Positions 50,827-54,259 of a stretch of 64,000 nucleotides of DNA are shown here, one piece after another; position 1 is the first letter of the stretch, and every line of letters begins with the position of its first letter. Origin of the DNA: Peptoniphilaceae bacterium (lineage in GTDB: Bacteria; Bacillota; Clostridia; Tissierellales; Peptoniphilaceae). Location of the stretch: positions 1-64,000 of the forward strand of contig JAQYEZ010000003.1 in the NCBI GenBank assembly GCA_028723425.1, read 5' to 3'. A program made the position numbers and the translations under genes. A model generated the notes under the pieces. It searched no databases. It saw only the letters and a program-made list of their open reading frames with translations, and had not been told where the DNA came from.

Positions 50827-50848
50827 AAAGCCCCCAAAAGGGAGCTTT
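50827..50848 (-). terminator. Terminator of the DUF2089-DUF4097 operon
   Basis: AAAGCCCCC and GGGAGCTTT form a stem with loop AAAA; on the minus strand the hairpin is followed by TTTTAGAAAG. It lies 11 bases beyond the stop codon. Confidence 0.85.
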
Positions 50849-50858
50849 AAAAACTTTA

Positions 50859-51923
50859 TTATTTAACTATTATCTTACCAAAACCAGATTTTAGGTCCAT
50901 ACTTAGGTCTGTTTTTTCTGGATTTGTTGAAACTTGATAACCTTCTTTTCTTTGGATTTTGTTTTTAAACTTATCAGAAATTGAATGATTGGTTGATTTT
51001 ACTAGAGCAGAAACATCTCCTTCAAAGCCTTCTGTATCAACTATCAAAGTTCCAAAACCAGAGTTTAAAGAAATTTCAGATATTTTTAAAAGTTTTGCAA
51101 GTCTTATAGAACCAGATTGGGAATTTACTGCAAGTTTTTCTGAATTTATACCATCAACCCTTACAGAACCATTTACAGCCGATACGTTAACCTCATTTCC
51201 TGAAATATTTGTTAAATTTACAGATCCATTAATATTATCAACATCTAGGCTACCATTGGTATTTTTAATTTCGATCTTTCCATTTACATTCTTAATAGAA
51301 ACTGATCCTGCAGAATTTTCTAGAGAAATTCTTCCGTTAACACTTTCCAGGATAGTATTTGAAAAATCTACTCCTTTAATATCTACTTCTCCATTTACAG
51401 TATTTATAGCAAGCTCATCGTAAATATTTGATCCAAGAAGCAGTTTAATATTTGCTGATGCGTTGTAATTTTTGTATTCTGGATTAACTCTTATAGAAAG
51501 TTGGCCATCTTCTACATTTAGCAAAAGATAATCAGAAACTTCTTCGACCTTGTCTTTAAAATATATTTTTTCTTTGACCAAAATAAAATTATCTTGGGCT
51601 CTTTGAATTTCTATATCTCCATTAATAAGATTTACCGAAATTTCTTTGACTTCATCTTCAATTTTTGTTTCATTTTCCATAGAAACTGAATTGATGTGAT
51701 AAATATTGTTGGGATTTGTCATAGAATCAAAATCTATATTAGAAATAGTTTGACTAGTTTTTTTGATCACTTTTTCCAAAGAAGAGCTAATTTTATTTAT
51801 CAAGCTATCTTCGTCTTTGTCCTTTTTGTTATTTCCTACAGCTTCTAAAAGTTCGCTTGCTTCATCAACGTTTATCTTGCCTTCTTTTAGCATTTCCAAA
51901 ATCATTTGTCTTTCTTCACTCAT
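50859..51923 (-). CDS. DUF4097 beta-repeat protein with N-terminal YvlB-like helical domain
   Basis: A 354-residue protein of unknown reaction. Residues 1-30 form a short helical module (RQMILEMLKEGKINVDEASELLEAVG). From ~90 it has a right-handed beta-helix-like run of repeats with spaced small residues (ISLENSAGSVSIKNVNGKIEI, SLDVDNINGSVNL). No signal peptide is visible. DUF4097 proteins often accompany membrane-stress regulators. Its start overlaps the DUF2089 stop by 8 bases, and its N-terminal module is similar to the C-terminus of that protein. Confidence 0.8.
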   Translation of the reverse strand: MSEERQMILEMLKEGKINVDEASELLEAVGNNKKDKDEDSLINKISSSLEKVIKKTSQTISNIDFDSMTNPNNIYHINSVSMENETKIEDEVKEISVNLINGDIEIQRAQDNFILVKEKIYFKDKVEEVSDYLLLNVEDGQLSIRVNPEYKNYNASANIKLLLGSNIYDELAINTVNGEVDIKGVDFSNTILESVNGRISLENSAGSVSIKNVNGKIEIKNTNGSLDVDNINGSVNLTNISGNEVNVSAVNGSVRVDGINSEKLAVNSQSGSIRLAKLLKISEISLNSGFGTLIVDTEGFEGDVSALVKSTNHSISDKFKNKIQRKEGYQVSTNPEKTDLSMDLKSGFGKIIVK

Positions 51924-52272
51924 TTTTAATCTCCTTTAACAATTCTGTTGCCATTTGGGCTGTTATTTCACCCTTGTCAAGCATATCCAATATATCTATC
52001 CTTGACTCTTCTATATCCACTTTTCTGCCTAATTTTTTTACAATTTTATCTATTCTATTTCTTACTGTTGGATATGATATGTTAAGTTCTTCTCCAACAT
52101 CTTTGATTGAACCTCTTTTTATTAAAAAAAGTTCTATAAATTCTTTGTCTTCTTGGTCTAGCCTTTGAAACTTATCCATTTCAAATTCGCCTGATATTTC
52201 TGTACCACATGTATTGCATCTGTATGATGTTATAACAAGGTCACCACCACAATTTGGACATTTATTAATCAT
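51916..52272 (-). CDS. DUF2089 zinc-ribbon/helix-turn-helix regulator
   Basis: Small probable DNA-binding protein of 118 residues. Residues 1-25 form a zinc ribbon (CPNCGGDLVITSYRCNTCG). A helix-turn-helix follows (~50-80; SIKDVGEELNISYPTVRNRIDKI), and the C-terminus is a short helical module (RIDILDMLDKGEITAQMATELL). It is the first gene of the two-gene unit with a good promoter. It likely regulates or senses together with the following DUF4097 protein. Confidence 0.85.
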   Translation of the reverse strand: MINKCPNCGGDLVITSYRCNTCGTEISGEFEMDKFQRLDQEDKEFIELFLIKRGSIKDVGEELNISYPTVRNRIDKIVKKLGRKVDIEESRIDILDMLDKGEITAQMATELLKEIKNE

Positions 52273-52291: not shown

Positions 52292-52319
52292 AGTATACCA
52301 TGATTTTTAATTTTGTAAA
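52292..52319 (-). promoter_or_regulatory. Promoter of the DUF2089 operon
   Basis: TTTACA (52319-52314), 16 bases, then TATACT (52297-52292) on the minus strand, followed by the AGAGGAGGTC ribosome site. Confidence 0.6.
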
Positions 52320-52431: not shown

Positions 52432-53121
52432 TTATATATAATCCTTAATCCAAAAGGCCTTCAAGGCTCTTACTATCCATATTATGGTATTTACAGCTAA
52501 AAATCCACATATTAAAAATAGAAGCATAGAAATAGCATAGGCCCAGTAGGGATTCACAAATTTATAATAAATTTTGGAAATTGCAAGCATAGAAAATATG
52601 GCAAATACTACCGTCCACTTTATAGCTGTAAGTAGTACTTCCCTAAAATCTATGTAAACTTTGTATTTATTCTTATATCTTTTGTTGAAATTATCTCTTT
52701 TTATCTTGTTTTCTTCTCTATTTGCCCTATCTTCTTTAATTAGTCTGGCATAATAAAAATCCATGTCTTCTTTGGAATAACCATATTTTTTTAATAACTT
52801 TAGTTCTTCTTCTGAGTATTCTATATTTAGGATTTTTTTAGTTATTTCAGCCTTGGACCTATATGAAATTCTTTTATCCCTAAGTTCTCTTAGTTTTTCT
52901 ATATCATTTGCTAAACTTATCTTCTCAAGTGTATTTTTCTCATATTCTTTTTCCTTTTTTAAGTATAAAAGGAAAAATCCTGTAAGCGATAAAATCACAA
53001 GTATTTGACCCAAGATAAGAAGAGCTGTACTCGCCCCAAAATAACTTATGATTAGCATGATAAGACTTGGGAAAAATACTATTACAAAAGTAAAGAGAAA
53101 AAATTTTACTACAGATCTCAA
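52432..53121 (-). CDS. Uncharacterised four-helix membrane protein
   Basis: I do not recognise a family. Two hydrophobic segments at the N-terminus (~5-28 VKFFLFTFVIVFFPSLIMLII; ~33-55) are followed by a highly charged coiled-coil-like cytosolic region (~58-150) and two more segments (~167-190, ~195-220). The start is TTG, preceded by a strong AAGGAGGG at 6 bases, and no ATG is available nearby. It lies one base after the glycosyltransferase gene, so they share an operon and perhaps an envelope role. Confidence 0.6.
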   Translation of the reverse strand: MRSVVKFFLFTFVIVFFPSLIMLIISYFGASTALLILGQILVILSLTGFFLLYLKKEKEYEKNTLEKISLANDIEKLRELRDKRISYRSKAEITKKILNIEYSEEELKLLKKYGYSKEDMDFYYARLIKEDRANREENKIKRDNFNKRYKNKYKVYIDFREVLLTAIKWTVVFAIFSMLAISKIYYKFVNPYWAYAISMLLFLICGFLAVNTIIWIVRALKAFWIKDYI

Positions 53122-53122
53122 T

Positions 53123-54259
53123 TTACCCTCCTTGTTTTTTTAATACTTTTAAGTATTCTTTTTCACACTTTTTGCCAAAGGATTCTATAGAAAAATTCTC
53201 CAAAGCATATCTTCTGGCGTTTTCTTCCATCAAAGCTTTATTATCTTGATCTTTGAAAATTATTGTTAAAAATTCTATAAAATCATCCAAATCCCTATAT
53301 TGATATCCATTAAAATTATTTATTATAACTCCCTCAAGGCAAGAATCTTTCCTACAAAGAGCAAGCCTACCATTGGAAAGAGCCTCATAATAAGTAAGGC
53401 CTTGGGTTTCGCTTTTACTAGCAGAAACGAAAACATCCGCCAATTGGTAGTAATCTTTTACAATAGCTGGATCTACCTGACCTATAAAATCTATTTTTTT
53501 ATCTATTTTTTTTGCATACTTTTTAAGTTTATCTAGATAGGGTCCTCCACCAACTATCAAAAACCTGGAATCTTTTAGGGATATTTTTTGATAAAAATCC
53601 ATGAGCTCTTCTATATTTTTCTCTTCGGCTAATCTTCCCAAATAAAGAAGTATCTTTTCGCAATCTTTGTAACCATATTTTTCTCTCAAAGTTTTTTTAT
53701 CAGAAAGTTTACTTATTTCTATTCCAGTTGGAATTACACTTATCTTAGCCTCATCAATATCATAAGATAAGAGGATATTTTTTGTCTTTATTGAAGGCAC
53801 TATCATTTTATCAACCTTCTTAGCTACAGCCCTTGATAGGGTAGCTATAAGTTTTTTTCCTACTTTTTTTGAAGGAGAAAAGTAGTGAGTATAGTCTTCA
53901 TAGACAGTGTGGTAGGTATGGACTATAGGAGCCTTGGTTTTTTTGGAAATTTTTTTGGCCATAATAAATGTTGAAAACTCACACTGACTATGGATTATAT
54001 CAGGTTTCCAGTCAATAAGCTCTAGGATCTCTTTGCTTCTAAGTATCCCACTCATTCTAGCATCTGGATAAACCTTTCCTGCCCCTAAGCTTCTTATATA
54101 ATAAACTCCGTCTTCTTTATAGGATTTGATAGAATGTGAAAGTGTAAGCACTCTTACGTCATGACCTTGGTCTATTAAGTACTGTTTTAAATTTAAAATT
54201 GAACGGACCACTCCATTTACAATTGGATAATACCAGTCGCTCGTGATTAGTATTTTCAT
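53123..54259 (-). CDS. GT4-family glycosyltransferase (glycolipid synthase-like)
   Basis: GT-B fold enzyme of 378 residues. The N-terminal acceptor motif is TSDWYYPIVNGVVRSILNL; the donor domain has LLYLGRLAEEKNIEEL (about 207) and SKSETQGLTYYEALSNG with the EX7E glutamates (about 281-297). It resembles 1,2-diacylglycerol glucosyltransferases that make membrane glycolipids or lipoteichoic acid anchors. Donor and acceptor sugars are not readable. It leads a two-gene operon with the membrane protein. Confidence 0.85.
   Translation of the reverse strand: MKILITSDWYYPIVNGVVRSILNLKQYLIDQGHDVRVLTLSHSIKSYKEDGVYYIRSLGAGKVYPDARMSGILRSKEILELIDWKPDIIHSQCEFSTFIMAKKISKKTKAPIVHTYHTVYEDYTHYFSPSKKVGKKLIATLSRAVAKKVDKMIVPSIKTKNILLSYDIDEAKISVIPTGIEISKLSDKKTLREKYGYKDCEKILLYLGRLAEEKNIEELMDFYQKISLKDSRFLIVGGGPYLDKLKKYAKKIDKKIDFIGQVDPAIVKDYYQLADVFVSASKSETQGLTYYEALSNGRLALCRKDSCLEGVIINNFNGYQYRDLDDFIEFLTIIFKDQDNKALMEENARRYALENFSIESFGKKCEKEYLKVLKKQGG

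Follow-up and report, generated by a model that had tools for sequence, protein, structure and literature searches.

Comparative support for pairing of a SHOCT-like hairpin carried by both a DUF2089 regulator and its DUF4097 neighbour

Introduction

In a genome of the Peptoniphilaceae, the gene of a DUF2089 regulator runs into the gene of a DUF4097 (toastrack) protein, and the end of the first protein resembles the beginning of the second. Are these two termini one and the same module, and does this module join the regulator to its neighbour? A first-pass annotation had described the termini as clearly similar and suggested that they may pair, allowing the beta-repeat protein to hold or release the DNA-binding protein. 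We followed up this proposal in the window (the whole analysed stretch of 64,000 nucleotides) and in a survey of related genomes.

Pfam catalogues the module as PF22746 (SHOCT-like_DUF2089-C). The main text of Ravi et al. 2024 (PMC11237479) describes DUF2089 as a zinc ribbon, a helix-turn-helix (HTH) and a SHOCT-like domain encoded beside Toastrack (DUF4097) genes, and places it in a four-gene Toastrack context. Toastrack contexts are proposed there to relay signals from the membrane to an HTH protein or to transcription. SHOCT-like domains are predicted as membrane anchors, not as pairing modules, and that main text makes no mention of module pairing or of opposite charges. The founding SHOCT study found one SHOCT domain to be without self-association and considered that it may bind something else (PMC3581485); that study concerns a related domain, not this module, and would fit a heterotypic role. 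In view of the Pfam entry and of Ravi et al., the shared module is not new. Module and operon type were already known, and the comparative support for pairing is what is new here.

Results

The two genes overlap and most likely form their own operon

The gene pair and its signals were located as follows.

51916..52272, minus strand: DUF2089 regulator gene, 118 aa (open reading frame; Pfam PF09862, E 2.5e-21, and PF22747, E 2.5e-14)
50859..51923, minus strand: DUF4097 (toastrack) gene, 354 aa (open reading frame; PF13349, E 1.8e-13)
51916..51923, minus strand: 8-base overlap, with the DUF4097 ATG within the end of DUF2089 (from the sequence)
51931..51936, minus strand: Shine-Dalgarno AAGGAG for DUF4097, within the module codons of DUF2089 (read from the sequence)
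52292..52319, minus strand: operon promoter, with hexamers TTTACA and TATACT 16 bases apart and TG ahead of the latter (from the sequence)
50831..50843, minus strand: terminator-like stem and T run 3' of DUF4097 (one found, against 0.6 expected by chance)

The 8-base overlap noted at first pass was exact, with bases 51916-51923 common to both genes, and was conserved at 17 of the 18 Anaerococcus loci, the overlap at L003 being 11 bases. The AAGGAG motif lies seven bases 5' of the DUF4097 ATG. TTTACA and GTATA of the promoter were kept in all 19 aligned Anaerococcus sequences, even where the upstream gene differed. The conserved promoter together with the terminator-like site suggests that the DUF2089/DUF4097 pair is most likely an operon of its own. 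No RNA families or tRNAs were found in the window. Upstream, at 52432-54259, the window encodes a GT4 glycosyltransferase and a 229-aa membrane protein; a gene of about 335 aa that sits between these two in most other Anaerococcus is missing here.

Regulator and partner carry the same helical hairpin

Profile searches and AlphaFold2 modelling divided the two proteins into the following parts.

52165..52260, minus strand: DUF2089 zinc ribbon, residues 5-36 (PF22747)
52027..52161, minus strand: DUF2089 HTH, residues 38-82, sigma-70 region 4-like (PF09862, weaker PF04545)
51922..52005, minus strand: C-terminal SHOCT-like module of the regulator, residues 90-117 (PF22746, E 1.6e-4, under the cut-off)
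51822..51917, minus strand: N-terminal SHOCT-like module of the partner, residues 3-34 (PF22746, E 2.4e-11)
51744..51803, minus strand: amphipathic helix of the partner, residues 41-60, candidate membrane contact (AlphaFold2 helix, pLDDT under 50)
50865..51686, minus strand: toastrack beta-repeat domain of the partner, residues 80-353 (AlphaFold2, pLDDT mostly 86-97)

In the regulator, both DUF2089 family profiles (PF09862 and PF22747) scored over their cut-offs, with the zinc ribbon followed by the HTH, and four cysteines were invariant in 19 aligned homologues. PF22746 reached 21.6 bits in this protein (cut-off 27) in a nearly full-length match (profile positions 2-29 of 32). The assignment of the module is backed by 83 non-redundant homologous pairs and is unambiguous from the homologous loci. 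By sequence, the regulator is composed of a zinc ribbon, a sigma4-like HTH and a SHOCT-like helical hairpin.

The partner exceeded the PF22746 cut-off (43.2 bits against 27), and its N-terminal module was highly conserved across 19 Anaerococcus sequences. Its AlphaFold2 model (19 sequences; overall pLDDT 82.6) contained helices at residues 3-13, 19-30 and 41-60, followed by the beta-repeat domain; the linker and the third helix had pLDDT values below 50. A Foldseek search with this model returned PDB entry 4qrk as the best match (E 5e-7) and also 4opw, both of which are toastrack structures cited in the main text of Ravi et al. 2024 (PMC11237479). PF13349 matched with 50.9 bits (cut-off 22.9), so that profile and model both point to the right-handed beta-repeat fold of the Toastrack/DUF4097 family. 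A PDB sequence search yielded nothing useful.

No transmembrane segment was evident in the 354-aa partner sequence. Residues 41-58 had a hydrophobic moment of 0.62 (charge +3), reached by about 1 in 1000 shuffles, and this stretch was strongly amphipathic, with a positive or neutral net charge, in 19/19 Anaerococcus sequences. It is a plausible membrane contact of the partner. By sequence, then, the partner is composed of a hairpin of the same kind as that of the regulator, an amphipathic helix and a toastrack.

The likeness of the two termini reported at first pass was borne out. BLASTP aligned DUF2089 residues 87-117 with DUF4097 residues 1-31 (13/31 identical, 20/31 positive, E 4e-4), and both termini matched PF22746. 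The terminal 40-mers scored 58 (BLOSUM62), a value equalled by none of 20,000 shuffles and the highest among 3,422 ordered C-terminus/N-terminus pairs drawn from 59 non-overlapping ORFs of the window (next score, 46). By these measures of sequence, the C-terminus of the regulator and the N-terminus of the partner are the same helical hairpin of ~30 residues, and not alike by chance. Throughout the genome, the only convincing PF22746 copies were those of this DUF2089 and DUF4097 pair. The genome's only other toastrack protein (G000:C69:41863-42420; L208 1171-2226), encoded after a truA-like gene, has an N-terminal transmembrane segment and is without the SHOCT-like module.

Two clearly homologous modules might also act homotypically, each dimerising or oligomerising its own protein, with their likeness reflecting one domain used twice in an operon. 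Dimers are common among HTH regulators. For a SHOCT domain, however, oligomerisation was tested and not supported (PMC3581485), and we consider the homotypic explanation improbable, also in light of the linkage and the charges described below.

The module links a type of regulator to its neighbour

The survey for PF09862 and PF22746 covered 150 genomes of the phylum, 196 genomes of the class and 121 genomes from the class to which a Sporosarcina belongs; a collection scan added 30 further loci. Among 131 distinct DUF2089 matches, a neighbour bearing the module started within 400 bp downstream in 99 of the 108 DUF2089 loci that had enough downstream sequence and a tail of the window type, this type being assigned by a profile trained on linked loci. 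Among the nine exceptions, four loci encode the module protein further along the same gene run (L204-L207), L197 has a weak module 12 bp downstream, in G293 the module protein lies at another place in the genome, and three loci (L155-L157), all from one genus, encode an aberrant long protein. DUF2089 proteins with another tail ('EPYIALIKRLAVNDKIDFDTAK...') had a module neighbour in 0/13 cases, a count from which a fourteenth match, L158, was left out as a different protein. Within the Bacilli, all 12 DUF2089s with the window-type tail were linked and none of the 10 without it.

The body of the linked neighbour was bimodal in length: 41 proteins were short (120-151 aa), and 62, with 333-557 aa, were for the most part toastracks; in the two short partners scanned, no Pfam body domain was found. 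The module was the constant part of the neighbour, retained with both body types, and linkage persisted across gene gaps of up to about 280 bp. We regard this linkage as the strongest evidence, itself comparative, that the module has to do with how the two proteins relate to each other. Homotypic association of each module would leave the connection between tail type and neighbour unexplained.

No natural fusion of regulator and partner was seen among the surveyed loci. The long DUF2089 frames L155-L159 were considered as candidates and rejected, as they are not such fusions. In L155, L156 and L157 the DUF2089 frame spans 336-593 aa with a low-complexity tail, and the neighbour overlaps it by 4 bases and has its weak module match at the C-terminus.

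Several other arrangements were observed. A second, solitary DUF2089 subfamily (L160-L168, L170, L171, L181, L200 and L281-L290) has a different C-terminal module (EPYIALIKRLAVNDKIDFDTAKILINEYKK), which PF22746 also matches. Some operons (L201, L202, L203) combine one DUF2089 with several consecutive module proteins, one of them with the module at the C-terminus. At L019 (4441-5094) and comparable loci of Clostridium/Sporosarcina, a protein of 83-95 aa without a Pfam match is encoded after the short partner, and regulator, short partner and this protein travel together as three genes.

Module-toastrack proteins occurred without DUF2089 in many Bacilli, where the module must therefore also serve something else. 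This observation favours an explanation in which each SHOCT-like hairpin anchors its own protein to the inner membrane leaflet and the proteins meet there without pairing. Such anchoring is proposed for SHOCT-like domains in the main text of Ravi et al. 2024 (PMC11237479), and the amphipathic helix of the partner adjoins the module. However, this helix could be the anchor in place of the module, and anchoring gives no reason why DUF2089s with the other tail never have a module neighbour. We judge membrane anchoring without pairing to be rather unlikely, yet the strongest of the alternatives.

Charges of the two modules oppose each other at three positions

Charges were counted in 83 non-redundant regulator-partner pairs. 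Column 12 of the module alignment, the residue after the turn glycine, was acidic in 72/83 regulators and basic in 76/83 partners. The pattern was reversed at column 10 (base in 40/83 regulators, acid in 67/83 partners) and at column 23 (base in 62/83 regulators, acid in 55/83 partners), and it was the same for short and long partners. The pair in the window conforms to it, with K in the regulator and E in the partner at column 10, E and K at column 12, and K and E at column 23; column 12 corresponds to regulator residue 102 and partner residue 16. Solitary DUF2089s, in contrast to the linked regulators with E, had K or R at column 12 in all 12 readable cases. In Bacilli genomes without a window-type DUF2089, column 12 was basic in 3/21 module proteins and drifts to K, T, I, Q, A or V in their toastracks; the unlinked toastracks are one clade, and linked versus unlinked thus amounts to a single evolutionary contrast. 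Membrane anchoring leaves the opposite charges of the two modules unexplained, and these charges would rather disfavour a common homodimer interface.

Of the 10 regulators in which column 12 is not acidic, nearly all still have a basic partner; in two pairs, both modules are acidic there. The charges are thus not compensated within individual pairs. Mutual information between the modules lay within the null (0.152, against a permutation 95% level of 0.163; 83 pairs), and the mirror-tree correlation beyond the HTH was weak (partial r 0.12, p 0.036). These data bear on a further explanation, in which the charges compensate one another inside each hairpin and the linkage reflects operon conservation and translational coupling, the modules making no contact. 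Columns 10 and 12 indeed flank the turn and carry opposite charges within each module; the 8-base overlap and the Shine-Dalgarno sequence inside DUF2089 would suit coupling, and covariation between the proteins was absent in the 83 pairs. Nevertheless, the linkage persists when the entire body of the partner is exchanged and when the genes lie up to about 280 bp apart, and we consider this explanation very unlikely.

The first-pass proposal that the modules pair thus gained indirect support, from co-occurrence, body swaps, the contrast between tail types and the opposite charges at three columns; direct contact between the modules was not among the findings.

A proposed docking model for regulator and partner

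As a proxy for the complex, the Clostridium uliginosum pair (L022), which is in frame, was read through its stops as a natural tandem. The AlphaFold2 model of this tandem was of low confidence (pLDDT 49.8, pTM 0.30) and too poor to use.

The reading we prefer, to which we give an even chance, is that the hairpins dock and that the partner makes the regulator's DNA binding depend on the state of the membrane. The oppositely charged hairpins of the two proteins would dock on each other, with the partner lying at the inner membrane face via its amphipathic helix and beta surfaces. The partner's hairpin would then couple membrane state to the binding of DNA by the regulator, which may control at least its own operon. 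Docking could either hold the regulator off DNA, as by an anti-activator or co-repressor, or present it to RNA polymerase. Pairing is a reasonable and testable refinement of a known operon type, and the gene pair may be a main envelope-stress circuit in Anaerococcus, in which PspC is missing here.

Should the hairpins pair, the question of what SHOCT-like domains do, open since the 2013 description of the SHOCT domain, would take a simple, testable form, that of a heterotypic docking module, and DUF2089 operons would constitute a signal relay parallel to LiaFSR. Column 12 (E in the regulator, K in the partner) would provide single residues to mutate. A broader reading, which we hold more tentatively than docking itself, sees in the hairpin pair a dedicated, charge-coded heterodimer interface with interchangeable partner bodies, and thereby a partner-switching stress relay. 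DUF2089 would then be served by toastracks or by proteins of about 130 aa, sometimes several per operon, in a stress relay without a kinase and without a transmembrane protein.

Comparison with known systems

The locus belongs to the DUF2089/Toastrack envelope-stress type of operon, here with two genes, in an Anaerococcus-like genome of the Peptoniphilaceae. As in the operons described in the main text of Ravi et al. 2024 (PMC11237479), a regulator of zinc ribbon, HTH and SHOCT-like domain stands beside a SHOCT-like/Toastrack protein, and the adjacency of DUF2089 to a Toastrack gene was found here. The context described there, however, has four genes, with PspC, LiaI-LiaF-TM or B-box variants, whereas the present operon has two; PspC (PF04024) was not found in the whole genome.

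YvlB of the Bacillus subtilis YvlABCD operon and Lmo2487 of the Listeria lmo2487-2484 operon, the latter annotated as LiaX, are likewise SHOCT-like and toastrack proteins, each belonging to an envelope-stress operon. Unlike the present pair, these operons hold PspC and a holin-like protein, and no DUF2089 regulator is described in them; PF09862 had no match in the B. subtilis control genome. LiaX, the daptomycin-sensing protein of enterococci (NCBIfam NF038025), matched weakly in the toastrack part of the partner, with 60 bits, well below the curated cut-off of 350. LiaX acts with the LiaFSR two-component system, in contrast to this pair, beside which LiaFSR is absent.

A further parallel is provided by the HAAS/PadR-like wHTH pairs, described in the main text of Ravi et al. 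2024, in which a toastrack or membrane protein bears a helical signalling domain that is always coupled to a small, separate DNA-binding protein. There the helical module and the HTH family are different ones, whereas here the same module is present on both proteins.
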